In this document: piece after piece, positions 4,900 through 63,892 of the stretch
How the letters are laid out: every line of letters starts with the position of its first letter
Position numbering within the stretch: position 1 is the first letter of the stretch
Origin: Bacteroidaceae bacterium
Lineage (GTDB): Bacteria; Bacteroidota; Bacteroidia; Bacteroidales; Bacteroidaceae
Assembly: GCA_017453465.1 (NCBI GenBank)
Contig: JAFTEV010000028.1
Coordinates: forward strand, 40,492-104,491
Reading direction: 5' to 3'
Length of the DNA: 64,000 bases
The notes under the pieces: generated by a model
Database searches by the model: none
What the model saw: the letters and a program-made list of their open reading frames with translations, nothing else
What the model was told of the DNA's origin: nothing
Made by a program: the position numbers and the translations under genes

Positions 4900-5001
4900 A
4901 AGTTAAAAGTTAAAAGTTAAAAGTTAAAAGTTAAAATGCCATGCGGAGTGTCAGTGTACTGCGCCAGCCCATTTTAACTTTTAACTTTTAACTTTTAACT
5001 T
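4900..5001. repeat. Heptamer tandem-repeat hairpin between pgk and the lipoprotein gene
   Basis: Five copies of AGTTAAA (4901-4935) face four copies of its complement TTTAACT (4973-5000), so transcripts can fold into a long A/U stem. The loop contains ATGCGGAGTG. The same heptamer followed by a nearly identical loop start (GTGCGGAGTG) reappears at the right edge of the window (63936 onward), so this is a dispersed element. It may end pgk transcription. Confidence 0.85.
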
Positions 5002-7007: not shown

Positions 7008-7102
7008 AAAGTTGACGCAACGGCGTTGTTTTTGAAAACATCGCCGTTGTTTCTGAAAACAACGCTCGTTGTTTTTACAAACAACGCCGTTGCGTCAACT
7101 TT
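7008..7102. repeat. 95-bp palindromic element, copy 1
   Basis: Perfect 24-base terminal inverted repeats (7008-7031 and 7079-7102; left end AAAGTTGACGCAACG) enclose further near-palindromes of the form CGTTGTTT, 3-4 bases, AAAACA(A/T)CG. The GTTG(T/C) motif recurs at 7025, 7046, 7068 and 7089, a step of 21-22 bases. A second copy of identical length lies at 58587-58681. Open frames crossing it encode only low-complexity Lys/Asn/Thr peptides. Confidence 0.9.
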
Positions 7103-7173
7103 CATTGCGGACGTGAGCAGTTTTGCTCCTCAAAAGAGGCAATTTTGTTCTTCTGCGAGGCTTGAAATGGAGC

Positions 7174-7233
7174 GCAGTCCCAGTGCTACCGCAATGCAGT
7201 CTGCCTTCACCAGCAAAGCCTTGCCCATGCAGT
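7174..7233. repeat. Possible decayed fragment of the 22-bp repeat family
   Basis: GTCCCAGTGCTAC (7177-7189) and CGCAATGCAGTCTGCC (7190-7205), followed by CCATGCAGT (7225-7233), use the same hexamers and core (GTCCCA, TGCTAC, AATGCAGT) as the three large 22-base-step arrays, but without a clear period. It lies 20 bases upstream of the promoter of the antitoxin gene. Confidence 0.45.
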
Positions 7234-16637: not shown

Positions 16638-16740
16638 GGAATTAGGAATTAGGAATGTGGAATTAGGAATGTGGAATTAGGAATGGCTACTGTGTGTTTT
16701 TCAGTATCAATTCCTCATTCCTAATTCCTCATTCCTAATT
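16638..16740. repeat. GGAATTA/GGAATGA heptamer repeats in inverted arms
   Basis: The left arm (16638-16685) holds tandem seven-base units GGAATTA and GGAATGT. The right arm (16709-16740) holds the complement, ATTCCTCATTCCTAATTCC, and begins with GTATC. The arms can form a long hairpin. The complement of the right arm, GGAATGAGGAATTGATAC, is found exactly at 61.9-62.0 kb. It fills the gap before the GH97 gene. Confidence 0.85.
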
Positions 16741-18059: not shown

Positions 18060-18178
18060 CTTTTAATTAACAATTAACAATTAAACAATTCACGATTAAC
18101 AATTCACAATTTGAGTATGGACAAGCAAGCCACAGATACTCAATTGTGAATTGTGAATTGATTAATTGGTAATTAGAG
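18060..18178. repeat. AATTGTG/AATTAAC heptamer repeats with inverted centre
   Basis: Seven-base units (AATTAAC, AATTCAC) run from 18064 to 18111 and their complements (AATTGTG, AATTGAT) from 18148 to 18175. At the inner ends GAGTAT (18113-18118) and ATACTC (18136-18141) pair around an 18-base loop. The units recur at 62.03-62.07 kb. It lies at the 3' end of the CcsBA gene. Confidence 0.8.
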
Positions 18179-25147: not shown

Positions 25148-25445
25148 GTATTTGGCTGGGGGGCGATACTCACTTTTTGTGCCCGATACCCACTCCGACG
25201 GGCGTGATACCCAATTTTGGGTACAGTGGCACTGCACTCCCGTTGCCGTGGCACTGCACTCCCACTTTCGTCCCACTGCACTCCCACTGCCGTGGCAATG
25301 CAGTGCCGCCGCAGTCCCACTGTAGTGTGCCAGAAGTCCCACTGCATTGTGCCAGAAGTCCCACTGCATTGTGACGGAAGTCCCATTGTGTTGTGACGGG
25401 AATCACACCGCAGTGGGAGAGAAATTTCAGTGCAGTGTTGGTAGA
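25148..25445. repeat. 22-bp-step near-palindromic repeat array A
   Basis: Ten units of exactly 22 bases start at 25226, 25248, 25270, 25292, 25314, 25336, 25358, 25380, 25402 and 25424. Most begin GTGGCA or GTCCCA, share a centre ACTGCA(C/T)T, and end with a variable linker. Three earlier related units (25148-25225) share GATACTCAC / GATACCCA at a 20-21-base step. Units 5 to 7 are nearly identical (GTCCCACTGCATTGTG) and lead into progressively diverged copies. The last unit overlaps the -33 element of the kinase promoter. There are no spacers, so it is not a CRISPR. It lies between the divergent porin operon and kinase operon. Confidence 0.9.
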
Positions 25446-25469
25446 TATGGACTGAATTTTGTATCTTTG
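25438..25469 (+). promoter_or_regulatory. Promoter of the double-kinase operon
   Basis: TTG at 25438-25440, 21 bases, then TATCTTTG at 25462-25469; the ATG is 30 bases on. The -33 part falls inside the last unit of repeat array A. Confidence 0.7.
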
Positions 25470-25498: not shown

Positions 25499-28400
25499 AT
25501 GTCCCGTCTCTACAACACCATCATGCTCTTGCTATGCCTCCTCATGGGGGGGCTGCTGACGCTGTGCACCACCGAGGGCGAGAGCCGCCTGGAGGAGGCC
25601 CAGCTCGACAGTGCGCGCACGGCCATGCTTCAGCGCATGGACTACGGCAAGGCTGAGGACATCTACCGCCAGTTGCGTGGCAAGACGCGCAACAAGCTCA
25701 CCCGTCTGCGTGCCGATGAGGGGCTGATGAAGTTGTGTCAAATCTGTTCGCGCAGTAAGGAGTTCTACGACTACCGCTCGGATGCGGAGCGGCTCATGGC
25801 CGAACTGCGCACGGCGGAGCAGCACATGGACGCACGGAACGACTCGATTTGGCTGGCAGCCCAGCAGGAGTTCAGAGAGGTGTCGGCGGTGTACTACTAC
25901 AACCTGCGCGACTTCGACCGCGCACGCGAGATTCTGGGCATTCCCCGCGAGCAGATGATGGGGCTGAAACCCTTCATGGCCCAATACATCGGGGCCGGCA
26001 CCTACTATTACCGCTCGATGCAGAAGAAGTGGGCTGCCGACGCGCTCACAGACCAGGGCCGCTACGACGAGGCTCTGGACTCGCTGGCTGCGGCTCTCTA
26101 CCTCGTCAACGAACATCACCGGAAGTACAGTTTCACGGGACTGGCTGACACATTATATATATATAATAGCGCCCCCGACACAATCTCCACCGAAATGCGC
26201 TGGATTCAAACCCCAGGGCTGATGTGTGTGCCGGAGTGGATGGCCTCGGTGCGCGACCAGCTGAGCATCACCCTCGGCGCAATGGGACGCAAGGCGGAGT
26301 CGGACTATAACCATAACATCTACTTCGACATCCTCGATGCCACCCGTCAGGATATGCTCATGGAGCAGCAGCTGGATGCACTGGAACGGCACGAGCAGTT
26401 CTTCCACATCCTGCTGGTAATCATTGCTGCCTTTGCCCTGCTACTGGTGTCGCTCGCAGTCAGCCTGTATCGACGACGCACGCGAACCGCTCAGCAACGG
26501 GTGGCACAACTGCGCAGCGACATCGAGCACGAATTGCAGGCCCTGCCAGCGCGGTGGCTGGAGCAGAGCGGAACCACTGTTGGCGAGATTGAAGACCAGA
26601 TGGAGTATGCCGACGATGAACGCCGCGCCGCCGAAATGGAGATTGAGCAGAACAAGCGAGGCTATGTGGACAAGGCTACAAGCGTGGCCATCGCCAACGG
26701 CATTGTGCCCTTCCTGGACCGCGCCTTGCACGTGGCCGACAGGTCGTTTGACCGCGACTACCTGCTGGAACTGATTGACAAGATAAATGACTACAACGAG
26801 GTGCTGGGACACTGGGTCAAGATTCGTCAGGGAAGCGTGTCGCTCAGCATCGAGAGTTTTTCGCTGGAAGACCTCTTTGCGGTGGTCAGGAAAGCCACAC
26901 GCCTATATGAAAGCAGCGGTTTAACTTTGTCTGTGCAACAGACTGATTCCGTAGTGAAAGCAGACAAGGCTCTCACGCTCTTCATGATTAACACGCTGAT
27001 GGACAACGCACGGAAGTTCACGCCGCAGGGAGGCCGTGTCAGCGTGGCGGCAACGGAGACGGAAGACTACGTGGAAGTATCGGTAGAGGACACGGGCTAT
27101 GGCATGACGGAGCAGGACACACGTGAGGTGGTGACGGCAAAGAAGGGCCACGGTTTCGGACTGATGAACTGCCGTGGCATCATTGAGAAGTACAAGAAGA
27201 CCAACCGACTCTTCAGCGTGTGCACATTCGGTGTAGAGAGCCAACTGAACAAGGGGAGCCGCTTCTACTTCCGACTGCCCAAGGGACTGAAACGGACTCT
27301 CATGCTGATTGCCGTGCTGACACTCTCTTGCAGGGGCTATGCCTTCCAGCCCGAAGACCCCAATCTGACCAAGGCACGGATGTATGCCGACAGCGTGTTC
27401 TATGCCAACACGCAGGGGCAGTATGGGCGCGCCATCGACTACGGAGACTCTGTGCTCACGGCCCTGAACTATTTCTACATGGAGCAGACTGGACGCACCG
27501 ACCACTTGCTGCTCATCGAGGGCGAAAGCAGCGATATGCCGGAGGTCAGGCTGTGGCAAGAGCGGTTCGACACAGACTATGGCATCATCGTGGATGTGCG
27601 CAACGAAATGGCCATTGCAGCCCTTTCGCTCAACCGCAAGCACCTGTATCGCTACAACAGTGATGTGTTCACACGGATGTATCAATTGCTTTCGCAGGAC
27701 GAAAGCCTCTCTGAGCGCATTGCCCGGCTGGAGCGTACCAACGCCAACAAGGGGCTGGTGGTCAACATGAGCGTGTTGCTGCTGCTGCTGTTTGTGCCGC
27801 TGCTCTTCATGTACTACTATCACAAACACCTGCTGCCCCTGTTCAACCTGCGGCAGGTAAAGGGGCTGATGGAGACACTGTTCACTACGCCACGCGAACA
27901 GTTCATGCCCACCCTGCAAAGAGGCGTTAACGACCTGGTGCCAGTGGATGATGTCTGCCTGGGAATCTATGACAAAGACCAGCGCGGACTACTTTTCCAC
28001 CACGCCCGCCACAATGCCGACGAGAGCCTGCAGCAGTTCATGAACTACGCCTATTTGGACGGCAAGGAGATTAAAGACCAGAAACTGGGCGTGGCAGCCT
28101 TTCCGCTCAGCGCGAGGGTGGGGGACGACGTGCAGACGGTGGGTGTGATGGGACTCAAACTGCACTCCAACCGCCTGACGAACACAGAGGCAGAACTGAT
28201 GGAGTGGGTTGCCCAAAGTGTGGCACAGTATGTGTACAGCACCGACACCCGCATCGAAGAACTCCAGCACGACTTGGAACTGCGGCAAGACGAGGTTCGG
28301 CGTGCCGATGCGGAACTGAGCCGCATCCATGTGCAAAACATGATTCTCGACAATTGCTTGAGCACCATCAAGCACGAGACCATGTATTACCCCAATCGCA

Positions 28401-29065
28401 TCAAAGACCTCCTGCTCCGCAACCTCACTGCCGAGGACAACTCGGCCCAGCAAGAGGTATCGGAGCTTATACATTATTATAAAGAAGTGTTCACTGTGCT
28501 CAGCCAGTGTGCCATGAAGCAGCTGGAGCGCACCGTGTTCCGCCGCCGCCAGATTCCTGTGCGCCAGCTGACGGACTACGCCGCAGAGCGGGCCCGCCAC
28601 TACCAGGAACGCCAGTTCACTGGGCTGCGCTTCGCAGCAGACAGCCCGGAAAAACCGGGAAAACCGGATATTTCGGTCATTCCGGAAAGCCCGCCGCCTC
28701 CCGCCCAGCCCACCATCCTGGGCGACCCCGTAATGTTGCAATACATGCTCGACACACTGCTGCAAGCCGCCTACAGCGTTAAAGAATGTGGAGAATTGAA
28801 GCTGGATTTTGCCGTTTCCGAGCAATTCTGTACCTTTGCACTGACTGACAGCCGCCGCCACTGGACTGCGGACGAAATGCGCACCCTCTTCTATGCCGAC
28901 ACACTGCGCTACGACTCGCAGGAGGACCGTCTCATCGGCTCGGAATACTTGCTCTGCAAACAAATCATACGCGAGCACGACGAGCACTGCGGCATTCGCG
29001 GCTGCCGCATTTATGCCACTGACGGCAACACCGTAGTGTTTACTTTACCAATGAAAACTAAATAG
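25499..29065 (+). CDS. Double histidine-kinase-like membrane protein (DUF5112/DUF5113-like)
   Basis: An 1188-residue signalling protein made of two similar halves. Half 1: export signal (about 5-23), helical TPR-like periplasmic domain, membrane segment about 303-325, coiled coil, then an HATPase with N-box NTLMDNARKF (about 498), DTGYGM (531) and GHGFGLMNC (550). Its H-box region (KATSVAIANGIVPFLDRAL) has no phospho-accepting His. Half 2: membrane segment near 601-617, short periplasmic helical region, membrane segment about 757-777, GAF-like stretch, then an H-box CLSTIKHETMYYPNRI with His 959, but an ATPase domain lacking DxGxG and a clear N-box. So one half seems to keep ATP binding and the other the His. 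The response regulator follows 6 bases downstream. Signal unknown. Confidence 0.85.
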   Translation: MSRLYNTIMLLLCLLMGGLLTLCTTEGESRLEEAQLDSARTAMLQRMDYGKAEDIYRQLRGKTRNKLTRLRADEGLMKLCQICSRSKEFYDYRSDAERLMAELRTAEQHMDARNDSIWLAAQQEFREVSAVYYYNLRDFDRAREILGIPREQMMGLKPFMAQYIGAGTYYYRSMQKKWAADALTDQGRYDEALDSLAAALYLVNEHHRKYSFTGLADTLYIYNSAPDTISTEMRWIQTPGLMCVPEWMASVRDQLSITLGAMGRKAESDYNHNIYFDILDATRQDMLMEQQLDALERHEQFFHILLVIIAAFALLLVSLAVSLYRRRTRTAQQRVAQLRSDIEHELQALPARWLEQSGTTVGEIEDQMEYADDERRAAEMEIEQNKRGYVDKATSVAIANGIVPFLDRALHVADRSFDRDYLLELIDKINDYNEVLGHWVKIRQGSVSLSIESFSLEDLFAVVRKATRLYESSGLTLSVQQTDSVVKADKALTLFMINTLMDNARKFTPQGGRVSVAATETEDYVEVSVEDTGYGMTEQDTREVVTAKKGHGFGLMNCRGIIEKYKKTNRLFSVCTFGVESQLNKGSRFYFRLPKGLKRTLMLIAVLTLSCRGYAFQPEDPNLTKARMYADSVFYANTQGQYGRAIDYGDSVLTALNYFYMEQTGRTDHLLLIEGESSDMPEVRLWQERFDTDYGIIVDVRNEMAIAALSLNRKHLYRYNSDVFTRMYQLLSQDESLSERIARLERTNANKGLVVNMSVLLLLLFVPLLFMYYYHKHLLPLFNLRQVKGLMETLFTTPREQFMPTLQRGVNDLVPVDDVCLGIYDKDQRGLLFHHARHNADESLQQFMNYAYLDGKEIKDQKLGVAAFPLSARVGDDVQTVGVMGLKLHSNRLTNTEAELMEWVAQSVAQYVYSTDTRIEELQHDLELRQDEVRRADAELSRIHVQNMILDNCLSTIKHETMYYPNRIKDLLLRNLTAEDNSAQQEVSELIHYYKEVFTVLSQCAMKQLERTVFRRRQIPVRQLTDYAAERARHYQERQFTGLRFAADSPEKPGKPDISVIPESPPPPAQPTILGDPVMLQYMLDTLLQAAYSVKECGELKLDFAVSEQFCTFALTDSRRHWTADEMRTLFYADTLRYDSQEDRLIGSEYLLCKQIIREHDEHCGIRGCRIYATDGNTVVFTLPMKTK

Positions 29066-35839: not shown

Positions 35840-36931
35840 ATGATTCCATTTCTCGACCTTCAGGCCATCAACCATTCCTTTGGGCAGCCGCTCATTGATG
35901 CAGCCACTCAGACCATCCGCTCAGGCTGGTATCTGCATGGTAACGAGACTGCTGCATTCGAAGCAGAGTGGGGCGAATACTGTGGGGCACCTTATGTCAT
36001 TGGCGTTGGCAATGGATTGGATGCCCTGCGACTCACGTTGCAAGCCTGGAAGATTATGTTAAATTGGGAGGATGGCGACGAAGTCATAGTTCCCGCAAAC
36101 ACCTTCATCGCCACGCCATTAGCCGTTTCGCAAGTAGGGCTGAAGCCTGTCTTCTGTGAAGTAAACTTCAGTAACGCGCTCATCCGCACAGATTCGTCCT
36201 ATCTGAAGACACTGCTGACACCGCGCACCCGCTGCATCATTCCTGTTCACTTATACGGACAACTGGCCAATCTGACTGAAATCTACCGCTTTGCGCAACG
36301 CCATCTGCTGCAAGTGCTGGAGGATGCTTGTCAGGCCCACGGTGCACGCTCTATATATAATAATAATGTACGCACGTGCGCGTACAGTTTTTATCCAGGC
36401 AAGAATCTGGGTGCACTGGGCGACGGCGGCTGTGTGACGACCCACGACGGAGAGCTTGCCGCGCTGGTGCGCAACCTTGCCAACTATGGGCAGACTGAGA
36501 AATACATCCACGACTACAAAGGCATCAATTCGCGCCTGGACGAACTTCAGGCAGCCATCCTCCGTGTGAAACTGCGTCGGCTCGACGCTGACAATCGGCG
36601 CAGACAGCAGATAGCCCAATTCTACGCAGAACAATTTGCCGCCGAACAGCCAGCTGCTGTGCAGGACGGAACCCATGTTTACCACGTTTATCCGTATCTG
36701 GCAAAAGACCGCACACGGTTGCAGCAGCATCTGCAAACCTGCGGAGTCCAGACGCAGATACATTATCCCGTGCCGTGTCACCAACAGAAAGCCTACGCCG
36801 ACGCGGAGTCCGTTTCATTGCCAGCGGTTGAATATTGGTGCAGCCACGAATTGTCCTTGCCAATCTCACCAGTCCTGACCGACGAGCAAGCCGAACACGT
36901 GGTCAAATCTGTGCAGTCCTTTCAAATTTGA
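35840..36931 (+). CDS. DegT/DnrJ/EryC1-type sugar aminotransferase
   Basis: A 363-residue PLP-dependent aminotransferase that places an amino group on nucleotide-linked keto-sugars for surface glycans. Signatures: MIPFLDLQAIN, SGWYLHGNETAAFEAEWGEYCG, GVGNGLDALRLTLQAW, VIVPANTFIATPLAV, VLEDACQAHGA (PLP-binding Asp), and FYPGKNLGALGDGG with the Schiff-base Lys. It is closest by eye to the FdtB/QdtB group (3-keto-6-deoxyhexose). No other sugar-nucleotide gene is adjacent, so the final product is unknown. Repeat array B starts 18 bases after its stop. Confidence 0.92.
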   Translation: MIPFLDLQAINHSFGQPLIDAATQTIRSGWYLHGNETAAFEAEWGEYCGAPYVIGVGNGLDALRLTLQAWKIMLNWEDGDEVIVPANTFIATPLAVSQVGLKPVFCEVNFSNALIRTDSSYLKTLLTPRTRCIIPVHLYGQLANLTEIYRFAQRHLLQVLEDACQAHGARSIYNNNVRTCAYSFYPGKNLGALGDGGCVTTHDGELAALVRNLANYGQTEKYIHDYKGINSRLDELQAAILRVKLRRLDADNRRRQQIAQFYAEQFAAEQPAAVQDGTHVYHVYPYLAKDRTRLQQHLQTCGVQTQIHYPVPCHQQKAYADAESVSLPAVEYWCSHELSLPISPVLTDEQAEHVVKSVQSFQI

Positions 36932-36948: not shown

Positions 36949-37168
36949 TCGAGAATGCAGTGCCACAGCTGTGGGAGAACTTTCCTACCTGCGTGGCACT
37001 GCATTCTCTTTTCTGTGGCAATGCAGTGGGACTTCAGTGGCAATGCACTCCCGCTGCGGTAGCAATGCAGTTTCACTGCGGTGGCAATGCAGTGCTACTG
37101 CAACGAGACTGCATTGCTACTGAAGTCCCACAGTTTTCCCGTTTGGCCGAGAAAGTTCTCTCGCTGCA
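36949..37168. repeat. 22-bp-step near-palindromic repeat array B
   Basis: Ten units of exactly 22 bases start at 36949 and every 22 bases to 37147. The best units read GTGGCA-ATGCAG-TGGGAC (37015), GTGGCA-ATGCAC-TCCCGC (37037) and GTGGCA-ATGCAG-TGCTAC (37081), each plus a four-base linker. A longer inverted repeat, GTGGGACTTCAGT(A/G)GC extended by AATGCA, joins 37026-37047 with 37111-37132. It shares hexamers with arrays A and C. It fills the gap between the aminotransferase and the promoter of the Rid gene. Confidence 0.9.
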
Positions 37169-37230: not shown

Positions 37231-37238
37231 TAACTTTG
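37231..37238 (+). promoter_or_regulatory. Promoter -7 box for the Rid-family gene
   Basis: TAACTTTG, only 10 bases before the ATG at 37248. Transcription would begin within a few bases of the start codon, suggesting a nearly leaderless mRNA. No strict -33 TTG is seen. Confidence 0.6.
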
Positions 37239-44537: not shown

Positions 44538-44757
44538 AAAGTGTCCCAGTGGCACAAAATCGGGACTTCAGTGCCGTTGCGGTGGCACAGTTCTCCCGCT
44601 TCTGCGGCACTGCATTGCCACTGACGTGGGAGAGCTGTGCCACTGCCGTAGCAATGCAGTGCTACTGCGGCGAGAGAACTGTGCCACCGAGACGGCAATG
44701 CAGTGCGCCAGCGGCGGGAGAACTCTCCCACGGAAGCGGGACTTAATCCGCAATGCT
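44538..44757. repeat. 22-bp-step near-palindromic repeat array C
   Basis: Nine or ten 22-base units start at 44560, 44582, 44604, 44626, 44648, 44670, 44692, 44714 and 44736 (with a degenerate one at 44538). The unit at 44648 is a perfect palindrome of half-sites, GTAGCA-ATGCAG-TGCTAC. Others are GCGGCA-CTGCAT-TGCCAC (44604) and GCGGGA-GAACTC-TCCCAC (44714). The last unit includes the stop codon and last codons of the symporter gene. Units share hexamers with arrays A and B. It lies between the symporter and the promoter of rlmH. Confidence 0.9.
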
Positions 44758-45999
44758 TTCCTTGTACTGCGTGCGGGCATAGCACCACACTACGGCGAAA
44801 GCCAGAAGGGGTATGACGAAGGGGACAATGTAGCCCGCAACGTCGGCAACGTAGCCCACGAGCAGGAAGACACAGCCGCCCACGGGTGCCATCATAAGGA
44901 CGGAGCTGGCCGACTTGGTGAGACCGCCCAGCCCCTTGATGGCCAGCGAGAAAATAGTGGGAAACATGATGGCTTCACACACATAATTGAGCAGCAGAAA
45001 GCAGAGCGGCAGGTATTTCAGCCACGAATCTGCGCCCTGCACTGCATAGGCCGACACGATAACGCCAACGATGCTGAAGAGCGAGCCTGTGGTGCAGATG
45101 TAGAGTGCCTTTTCTGCGGTCATATACTGCATCACCCATGAGCCGACAAACCTGCCTGCCATGAAGAACATCAAGGCAAAGCCCAGGATGATTGAGGCAT
45201 TGCCGGCGGTGAGCATTTCCACGCCCGTGGTGAACAGCACAAAGTAGCTGTTGATGCTGATTTCTGCCACCTCGTAGGCCAAAAGCGCACAGGCTCCGAA
45301 GACGAACATCTTGTTCCGCAACAGCTTTGCGTAGGGCGACCGAACCGCAGTTTCTGCCTTGAGAGCGGTTTCTGCTTCAGCCGACTCTTCGCTGCGGATT
45401 TCGGGCAACCGCGAGAAGGAGAAGACAATGGCCACGATGACCACCACCACACCCATGATGACGTAGGGGATGCTGATGTCTGCCGACTGGCCGTTTGCAA
45501 ACAGGAAACTGCCCACAATGACCGGAGCCAGGCAGGAACCCAGTCCGTTGAACGACTGAGCGAAGTTCAGTCGCGAGGCAGCCGTTTCTTTCGCTCCCAG
45601 CTGGGCTGCGTAGGGATTGGCAGAGGTTTCCAGCAGGGCCAGACCACAGGCAATGACGAAGAGGCACACAAGGAAAGCCCCCAGTGTGCCCATCCTGCCG
45701 CACGGAAGAAAGAGGAATGCCCCCAGCGCATAGAGCACCAGGCCGAACACCACACCACGCTTGTAGCCAAAACGGTTGATGAACAGGCCGGCGGGAATGG
45801 CCATGAGGAAGTAGCCCATGTAGGTTGTCACCTGAATCAGTGCAGACTCGGCAATGCTGATGTTCAGCGACTCGCGGAAATGTTGGTTCAGCACGTCGAG
45901 GATGGCACGTGCAAAACCCCAGAGGAAAAACAGCGACGTGACCAGCGTAAAGGGCACGATGAAGTGTTTGGATGTGAGTGTCTCGCGTTGATGTATCAT
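44743..45999 (-). CDS. Fucose/hexose:proton symporter of the FucP family
   Basis: A 418-residue major-facilitator-superfamily transporter with twelve predicted membrane segments. FucP-family markers are FFLWGFARAILDVLNQHF near residue 24, the inter-helix MAIPAGLFINRFGYKRGVVFG, and LALLETSANPYAAQLGAKETAASRLNFAQSFNGLGS. Relatives carry L-fucose, glucose or galactose with protons; the exact sugar is not determined here. Its start overlaps the stop of the GH10-like gene by 4 bases (ATGA), so the two are translationally coupled, and it probably imports the sugar released by that enzyme. Confidence 0.92.
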   Translation of the reverse strand: MIHQRETLTSKHFIVPFTLVTSLFFLWGFARAILDVLNQHFRESLNISIAESALIQVTTYMGYFLMAIPAGLFINRFGYKRGVVFGLVLYALGAFLFLPCGRMGTLGAFLVCLFVIACGLALLETSANPYAAQLGAKETAASRLNFAQSFNGLGSCLAPVIVGSFLFANGQSADISIPYVIMGVVVVIVAIVFSFSRLPEIRSEESAEAETALKAETAVRSPYAKLLRNKMFVFGACALLAYEVAEISINSYFVLFTTGVEMLTAGNASIILGFALMFFMAGRFVGSWVMQYMTAEKALYICTTGSLFSIVGVIVSAYAVQGADSWLKYLPLCFLLLNYVCEAIMFPTIFSLAIKGLGGLTKSASSVLMMAPVGGCVFLLVGYVADVAGYIVPFVIPLLAFAVVWCYARTQYKESIAD

Positions 46000-58586: not shown

Positions 58587-58681
58587 AAAGTTGACGCAAC
58601 GGCGTTGTTTGTAAAAACATCGCTCATTGTTTTTAAAAACAACGCCGTTGTTTACAAAAACAACGGCGTTGCGTCAACTTT
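58587..58681. repeat. 95-bp palindromic element, copy 2
   Basis: Same length and ends as the copy at 7008-7102; its own arms match with one mismatch. TTG recurs at 58605, 58627, 58648 and 58669, a step of 21-22 bases, and the internal near-palindromes CGTTGTTT and AAAACAACG are the same with changed spacers. It lies between convergent genes. Confidence 0.9.
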
Positions 58682-61904: not shown

Positions 61905-61916
61905 TTATAATTGTGA

Positions 61917-62068
61917 ATGAGGAATTAGGAATTAGGAATTGATACTCTAAGGAATGAGGAATTAGGAATGAGGAATTAGGAATTGATACTCTAAGGAAAG
62001 AGGAATTAGGAATGAGGAATTGATACTCCAATTGTGAATTGTTAATTGTGAATTGTTAATTGTGAATT
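61917..62068. repeat. Composite heptamer repeats, GGAATTA/GGAATGA then AATTGTG/AATTGTT
   Basis: Tandem seven-base units GGAATTA, GGAATGA (61919-62027) are interrupted three times by GATACTC, and the third passes in phase into AATTGTG/AATTGTT units (62029-62066). The first part matches the repeat at 16.7 kb and the second that at 18.1 kb, so this locus joins two families. It fills the gap between the protease start and the lepA end. Confidence 0.85.
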
Positions 62069-62080
62069 ATGCATTATGAA

Positions 62081-63892
62081 TCAATCATCGTCCAGCTTGA
62101 GCACAGCGAGGAAGGCTTTCTGTGGCACAGACACATTGCCAATCTGCTTCATGCGCTTCTTGCCCCGCTTCTGTTTCTCCAGCAACTTGCGCTTGCGGCT
62201 TACGTCGCCACCATAACACTTGGCCAGCACATCTTTGCGTACCTGCTTCACCGTTTCGCGGGCCACAATCTTGCCGCCAATGGCTGCTTGGATGGCGATG
62301 TCGAACTGCTGACGAGGCAGCAAGTCCTTCAGTCGCTCACACATGCGGCGACCCAGCGTGACAGCGTTGTCAACATGGGTCAGCGTGGAGAGCGCATCGA
62401 CCGATTCGCCGTTGAGCAGGATGTCGAGCTTCACCAACTTTGAGGGACGGAAACCTGCGGGATGGTAGTCGAAGCTGGCATAGCCACGGCTCACGCTCTT
62501 CAGCTTGTCGTAGAAGTCAATCACGATTTCGCCCAGCGGCATGAGGTACTCTATCTCCACACGATTGCCCGCAATGAAGTCCTGCTTCACCAGTTCGGCC
62601 CGCTTGCCCAGACAGAGCGTCATGATGGGGCCGATGTAGTTGGCCGTCGTGATGACCGTGGCGCGGATGTAGGGTTCTTCCACGTGTTCAATGAGTGTGG
62701 GGTCGGGCATACCCGACGGGTTGTGCACCTCTTCTGCATTGCCATGCTTGTCGTACACCATGTAGGACACGTTGGGCACGGTCGTGATGACATCCATGTT
62801 GAACTCGCGGTCGAGCCGCTCCTGCACAATCTCCATGTGGAGCAGTCCCAGAAATCCGCAACGGAAACCGAAGCCCAGCGCAGCCGATGACTCGTGCTGG
62901 AATGTGAGCGAAGCATCGTTCAGCTGCAACTTCTCCAGGCTGGTGCGCAGGTTCTCGTAGTCTTCCGTCTCGATGGGATAGATACCCGCAAAGACCATGG
63001 GCTTCACTTCCTGGAATCCCTGTATGGCTTGGTCTGTGGGGTTGGCCACGGTGGTGATGGTGTCGCCCACCTTCACTTCCACCGCATTCTTGATGCCCGT
63101 CACGATGTAACCCACATCGCCCGTGCGCAGTTCCTTCTTGGGCACCATGTCCATCTTGAGCGTGCCAATCTCTTCGGCCAGGTATTCCTTCTTGGTATTG
63201 ATGAAGCGCACTTTTTCGCCGGGACGCATCACGCCGTTGATAATCTTGAAGTAGGCAATGATGCCACGATAGCTGTTGAACACAGAGTCGAAAATCAAGG
63301 CTTGCAACGGAGCCTCTTCGTCACCCACGGGGTGCGGAATGCGCTCCACGACGGCTCGCAGAATGTCGTCCACACCCTCGCCCGTCTTGCCCGAAGCATA
63401 GATAATGTCATCGGGGTCGCAGCCGATGAGATCCACAATCTCGTCGGCCACCTCTTCGGGCATGGCGTTGGGCATATCAATCTTGTTGATGACAGGGATG
63501 ATTTCCAGGTCGTGGTCGATGGCCATATAGAGGTTGCTGATGGTCTGTGCCTGCACACCCTGTGTGGCATCTACCACCAGCAGGGCACCCTCGCACGCCG
63601 CAATGCTTCGGCTCACTTCGTAAGAGAAGTCCACGTGTCCTGGCGTGTCAATCAGGTTCAGCACATAGCGGCCAGCGGCCAGTCCTTCCTTGCAGGGAGC
63701 ACCATAGTCATACTCCATCTGGATGGCGTGGCTCTTGATGGTGATACCACGCTCCTGCTCCAGGTCCATGTCATCCAACATCTGCCCCTGCGTAATCTGA
63801 ATCGTCTTCGTCCGTTCCAGCAAACGGTCGGCCAACGTGGATTTCCCGTTGTCAATATGTGCAATAATACAAAAATTACGGATATTCTTCAT
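62081..63892 (-). CDS. lepA: Elongation factor 4 (LepA)
   Basis: Ribosome-binding GTPase that remodels stalled or mispositioned elongation complexes. The 603 residues match LepA. GTP motifs: [15 protein letters not shown] (G1), [15 protein letters not shown] (G3), NKIDMP (G4), [10 protein letters not shown] (G5). C-terminal LepA domain includes [28 protein letters not shown] and [33 protein letters not shown]. In G1, Asn replaces the usual His before GKST. ATG 63892 gives the standard [12 protein letters not shown] start. Confidence 0.98.

Follow-up and report, generated by a model that had tools for sequence, protein, structure and literature searches.

What is the run of near-palindromic 22-bp units upstream of a histidine-kinase gene in a 64,000-nucleotide stretch of a Bacteroidaceae bacterium (GenBank assembly GCA_017453465.1, contig JAFTEV010000028.1; the whole stretch is called the window below)? 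A model's first description of these letters, here the sequence-only reading, counted ten units ending inside a promoter and suggested binding sites for a multimeric protein or a structured RNA. We followed the run, array A, through the window, its genome (G000) and compared genomes (other G numbers; L numbers denote fetched loci). Array A looks like a fast-evolving repeat element made of evenly spaced protein-binding sites. On a judgment that we put at about even, it is a copy of a non-coding repeat (alpha) dispersed between genes, within a genus-wide class that keeps a 21–23-bp step, often with dyads, and not its letters, the units being phased sites of a putative dimeric DNA-binding protein. 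The observed basis consists of dispersal, a strict lattice, an inward order in alpha and in a family of genome G015, chimeras between alpha and a second type (beta), and the presence of another family at the sites of arrays A and C in congener G004, together with the lack of good evidence for base pairing.

Unit anatomy, lattice and polarity

Three arrays, A, B and C, lie inside the window:

25226..25423, no strand assigned: array A, alpha type, nine near-palindromic 22-bp units in register
25424..25445, no strand assigned: doubtful tenth unit of the sequence-only reading; the weight matrix counts no unit there
36949..37168, no strand assigned: array B, ten units at 22-bp steps, between an aminotransferase gene (35840-36931) and a gene at 37236
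44560..44735, no strand assigned: array C, with eight units spaced 22 bp apart; its end lies 7 bp from an MFS gene's stop codon

At a lag of 22, 71 of 88 positions in array A are identical; 40 first-order Markov randomisations of the window reached at most 45. The fixed helical spacing of near-palindromic units was correctly seen. A weight matrix places nine units in strict register (25226–25423) and none at 25424–25445, which makes the count of ten generous. Units 5–7 (starting at 25314, 25336 and 25358) are indeed near-identical. The reported starts (GTGGCA or GTCCCA) and core (ACTGCA) are also correct, the fuller description being an 18-bp dyad with halves GTGGCAVTG and CABTGCCAC followed by a 4-bp linker near TGCA; a half-step of 11 bp is visible. 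With contiguous units and a degenerate 4-bp linker, the array is not a clustered regularly interspaced short palindromic repeat (CRISPR) locus, and its non-coding nature is likewise supported.

The alpha statistics cover 77 arrays, 37 from G000 (34 fetched plus the three of the window) and 40 from G004, with 531 units; eight further G004 arrays (L140–L147) were fetched and scanned outside the statistics. The G000 assembly apparently contains duplicated contigs (C81/C106, C4/C85 and C12/C92), and second copies on C81, C4 and C12 were dropped from the counts. C81 and C106 carry the same sequence at arrays A and B, so these duplicates are uninformative on short-term evolution.

Alpha arrays hold 3–10 units, with 7 or 8 in 48 of the 77, and their commonest core tetramers are TGCA (183 units), AGTT (143) and AACT (118). 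The lattice is strict: of 391 neighbouring unit hits, 347 fall at phase 0 of 22, 38 at phase 11 and 6 elsewhere. The asymmetric units are also ordered. AGTT precedes AACT in 171 ordered pairs and follows it in 15, the former order being favoured by 43 arrays and the reverse by 3; permuting unit order gave a mean of 93 (standard deviation 9.5), and none of 2000 trials attained 171. The array-defining matrix, built from the window arrays and symmetrised, favours dyad units and imposes no polarity. Because AGTT units precede AACT units, the GGCACAG-type half of asymmetric units tends to face outward on both array sides; the unit order is inward, as for inverted binding sites.

These data bear on the main rival explanation, in which the arrays are neutral or selfish minisatellites produced by slippage and short gene conversion through palindromes, with a near-two-turn step, tolerated between genes and without a protein reader. 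We regard it as a real possibility, although on the unlikely side. It is favoured by near-identical neighbour units and by a 44-bp super-period (left-half identity across units 0.65 at lag 2 vs 0.628 at lag 1), as well as by unit swap, block copies and the species restriction of families. Block copying was seen in one group of four loci, with unit swap too; in the L035/L083 pair, the flank and first units are identical, the difference being a block change in the core of unit 3. However, phase-shifted units are almost absent (6/391), and pure slippage does not predict an order of orientations. A second repeat of TGACAGGT/ACCTGTCA words trails the copied alpha block at L051, L056 and L059.

Genomic distribution and gene context

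Searching G000 with a sequence-only alpha model of 44 positions returned 188 matches at E ≤ 1, including the 34 further fetched array loci. The outcome that would have refuted the sequence-only reading, only these copies at random places, was not observed. Alpha arrays thus occupy at least 37 loci in G000, and at least 48 in G004. Among 41 genomes (25 of the genus, G000 included, and 16 of the order), alpha model R1 matched in three, namely G000 (125), G004 (169) and G015 (2). An exact 18-mer scan of a species-genome collection gave 52 stretches, four from RUG14757 and the other 48 with a single site per contig, about chance by our own arithmetic.

By greedy open reading frame (ORF) calls the alpha arrays are intergenic, some (e.g. 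L049 and L055) being overlapped by ORFs of uncertain reality. The same calls, which miscall the left neighbour of array A, place a gene on both sides of 68 of the 77 arrays. The 136 flanking gene sides comprise 80 stops and 56 starts, the latter at a median of 171 bp, and 22 of the 68 gaps are convergent and 10 divergent; several arrays start within 10 bases of a stop codon. The preference for gene-end and convergent gaps is modest, and the excess of stops over starts again fits a neutral minisatellite. At L042, from about position 2497, an alpha array end adjoins a CRISPR-like array (~30-nt repeats and spacers, judged by eye).

The kinase promoter

The following features adjoin arrays A and C:

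25462..25469, plus strand: TATCTTTG, a -7-type promoter box before the DUF5112/DUF5113 histidine-kinase gene, kept in G004 despite the other array type there
25499..29065, plus strand: gene for the histidine kinase (DUF5112, HATPase_c, DUF5113), listed only as the context downstream of array A
44743-45999, minus strand: MFS gene beside array C

The sequence-only reading had stressed a link with this promoter, the last unit covering its -33 element. The nine clear units stop 38 bp upstream of the TATCTTTG box, and the doubtful tenth may reach into a -33 element. This proximity is what speaks for array A as a regulatory operator array of the kinase operon, which we consider highly improbable in view of the at least 36 other array loci in G000 and of the G004 ortholog, where TATCTTTG is kept and the array has other letters and ends farther from the same box, ~110 bp upstream of it. 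Gene starts, moreover, make up only 56 of the 136 sides and lie at the median distance given above. A promoter-specific operator was therefore rejected on the strength of the other loci and the G004 ortholog; the kinase promoter is probably a bystander, its overlap with the array incidental.

Pairing and folding

Repetitive extragenic palindromes and bacterial interspersed mosaic elements (REP/BIME) are palindromic units scattered between genes, often close to gene ends. Alpha resembles them as a set of dispersed intergenic palindromes, many of whose units begin GTGG or GTAG, and differs in lacking excess hairpin pairing and in forming contiguous fixed-step arrays. A related explanation takes the arrays as RNA or DNA hairpin elements of this kind, acting in 3' regions as terminators or in transcript stability. 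Dyad units, inward polarity, the several arrays directly after stop codons and a 12-bp inverted pair in G015 elements (below) speak for it. Pairing was assessed in the 67 arrays with six or more units. Complementarity between the halves of a unit is 0.571, identical to the cross-array background (0.571), and that between mirrored units is 0.586, compared with 0.594 (within type) and 0.592 (all) for unit-order shuffles; both stand at background, and we conclude that pairing is not what is kept. AGTT or AACT cores occur in 261 of the 531 units, typically of the form GGCACAG-TTCTCCC with halves unpaired at positions 4 and 6 (judged by eye). Fold energy is slightly below that of unit-order permutations: the mean z is -0.30 on one strand and -0.41 on the other, giving combined Z values of -2.5 and -3.3, respectively. 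Polarity may account for this effect. Rfam models gave no match at gathering score in the window.

Structured RNA or a hairpin as the conserved property was thus rejected for want of excess pairing within or between mirrored units, the slight fold-energy signal pointing the other way, and the corresponding half of the earlier suggestion falls. We rate hairpin elements as decidedly unlikely. The Y1 transposase of REP systems (REP-associated tyrosine transposase, RAYT; PF01797) had no match in G000 (85% complete), while G004 has 2, and a REP system with RAYT is doubtful for the window's genome.

Orthologous sites and the beta family

The regions of arrays A and C are syntenic between the window and G004. 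At both sites the G004 array, also on a 22-bp step, is built from another half-site (GTGGTAAAA; beta type, GTGGTAAAACTTTACCAC plus linker), and the presence of a different family on the same step counts against a neutral minisatellite. Across 45 genomes of the genus, the beta model matched in G000 (27), G004 (86), G042 (21, of a third, shorter type) and G053 (1); a pattern search of the loci for a perfect beta palindrome found one, in L038. Half-site chimeras connect the two types. Of 12 foreign units in alpha or beta arrays, 11 keep to phase 0 or 11, although six of the 12 are chimeras or hold the other family's half, which forces their phase, and five of the remaining six are in phase. Synteny with G004 breaks exactly at array B, between window positions 36949 and 37231, the two sides lying ~58 kb apart on one G004 contig; the G004 stretches flanking the break gave no alpha unit hit. 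Five G042 loci (L154, L157, L160, L169 and L175) hold short elements in which two or three palindromes resembling GTGGCAAACGTTTGCCA are spaced by about 22 bp.

Other repeat families in the genus

A first impression that the arrays are confined to G000 and G004 was rejected, since other families exist elsewhere in the genus. G015 carries a 12-bp site, ACGCAGWACTCT, repeated exactly every 22 bp, with 96 + 105 = 201 pair matches (up to 3 mismatches), from which we estimate a total of ~100 elements; the pair had no match in the other 44 genomes. Its elements have matching ends, and the fixed length of the spacers between the conserved 12-bp sites counts against neutral slippage. In the 21 elements with three or more sites, the arrangement is >>>< in 8, ><<< in 7, another two-sided inward one in five and single-orientation in one; a 12-bp inverted pair lies at the >< junction.

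In G000 itself a further element, gamma, has a fixed length of 89 bp, internal 21-bp steps and matching ends (GTTGACGCAACG...CGTTGCGTCAAC), with window copies at 7011–7099 and 58590–58678. Its ends gave 32 + 36 matches in G000, which has ~33 copies (we inspected 18 distinct ones), and none in 44 congeners; the outer flanks hold weak information in further steps. Adjoining a gamma element, window positions 7170–7207 give a weak alpha-like match (E 0.002).

In a stricter explanation, the elements are miniature inverted-repeat transposable elements (MITEs) proper, the ends of non-autonomous transposons whose transposase binds several inward sites. MuA/TnsB-type transposon ends carry several enzyme sites each, near 22 bp and facing inward, and share with the present arrays inward sites near that step, several per end. 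The inward directional sites of G015, the 3+1 arrangement in 15 of those 21 elements and the family's high copy number, together with the fixed length and matching ends of gamma, agree with such a mechanism. It nevertheless appears unlikely, given the lack of a clear target-site duplication in gamma and G015 elements and, for alpha, of a terminal repeat outside its units. The comparison differs further in that no transposase is linked here (an array-flanked transposase was not searched for).

Tandem Repeats Finder gave a wider survey. The window and eight congener samples contain 42 non-overlapping rows of period 22/23 in 784 kb, although rows are not arrays (array A accounts for two, and neighbouring congener rows may belong to one array). 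Three outgroup genomes gave 1 such row in 302 kb, and other non-triplet periods of 10–50 (44 and 46 left out) gave 17 rows in the genus samples. By sample, the period-22/23 rows number 4 in the G000 window, 9 in G003, 7 in G014, 11 in G020, 1 in G007, 2 in G002, 4 in G016, 0 in G055 and 4 in G059. The G003, G014, G020 and G007 samples come from contigs reached through earlier searches, one of which, G014 C86, was already known to hold an array; the blind samples are G002, G016, G055 (20 kb only) and G059. Palindromy exceeds z = 2 in 10 of 38 congener 22/23-bp units, against 0 of 14 units of other periods. Non-palindromic 23-bp rows with ACGAGC/GATGACGAG words occur at L324 2502–2912, L331 6612–6819 and L332 19692–19927 (G003 and G020).

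The nearest described kind

Porphyromonas gingivalis also belongs to the Bacteroidales. Its BrickBuilt elements are minisatellite/MITE repeats of tandem 23-nt units without spacers, always intergenic, at 19 loci and species-restricted, with leader and tail parts bearing terminal inverted repeats, 1 to 22.8 repeats and within-element indels of up to 6% (PMC4596501). Alpha is alike in being dispersed, intergenic and tandem without spacers, a few alpha arrays overlapping uncertain long ORFs; it differs in having 3–10 dyad units with inward polarity and neither leader nor tail. The 23-nt BrickBuilt consensus had no match in the window (up to 3 mismatches) and no exact match in 375 loci. BrickBuilt is the nearest described kind that we found, and the earlier statement that no known element fits was too strong. 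In the open-access literature, we found no paper on 22-bp arrays like alpha.

Interpretation

The class is one of MITE/minisatellite-like intergenic elements whose geometry is kept and whose sequence is not. The earlier reading of the units as an array of binding sites is supported. We propose that a dimeric, sequence-specific protein would contact each half-site from the same face of the DNA and load cooperatively along the array, and that selection or a copying process would maintain step and dyads while specificity drifts. Dimeric sites on one DNA face would explain the step, the dyad, the inward order and the exchange of modules. They do not alone explain dispersal; here block copying is seen in the one group of four loci, and the element ends give no clear sign of transposition. 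The elements spread and turn over like MITE/minisatellite repeats, probably via block copying and unit exchange, and the putative protein may be the enzyme that mobilises them or a host protein of nucleoid or insulator type.

Several results weigh against this binding-site interpretation. No array-binding protein was identified in this analysis. In 18 gamma and 20 G015 elements no target-site duplication was clear, the best being 5/18 vs 1.2 expected among many boundaries tried, and beyond the decaying units the 154 alpha array ends carry no conserved sequence and no terminal repeat. Palindromy is not above z = 2 in 28 of the 38 congener 22/23-bp units, and the 23-bp GGTGTGASTCACACC family of G020 is without polarity (6 vs 5 pairs; 8 arrays, three genomes). 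Sites A, B and C are not generally occupied in congeners: among 17 stretches at or near them in six other congeners (L272–L288), one (L272, G014) has a 21–24-bp array, of 23-bp period by Tandem Repeats Finder, and the G015 stretch at site A is without one. Finally, slippage with a step of two turns could have produced the arrays neutrally.

A more far-reaching version of the binding-site interpretation, which we offer tentatively and think possible more than probable, is a genus-wide site-array system. The geometry, inwardly ordered dyads two turns apart, would be kept by selection. The letters that are recognised would be exchanged again and again, both in place and across the genome, following the shifting specificity of a DNA-binding protein that evolves rapidly, much like the arms races at centromeres or recombination hotspots, but in a bacterium.

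Sequence is the usual means of recognising intergenic repeats in bacteria. Here, architecture is what related species share, and because sequence is not common to them, the class escapes sequence searches. If a protein does read the arrays, the changes in its specificity could be traced from one species to the next in a single genus; otherwise, the arrays would reflect a mutational process with a two-turn ruler.

The window also holds heptamer tandem repeats (GGAATTA and AAGTTAA types) at 4900–5001, 16638–16740, 18065–18111 and 61915–62081; in G015, such heptamers also lie near the site orthologous to array A (L136).
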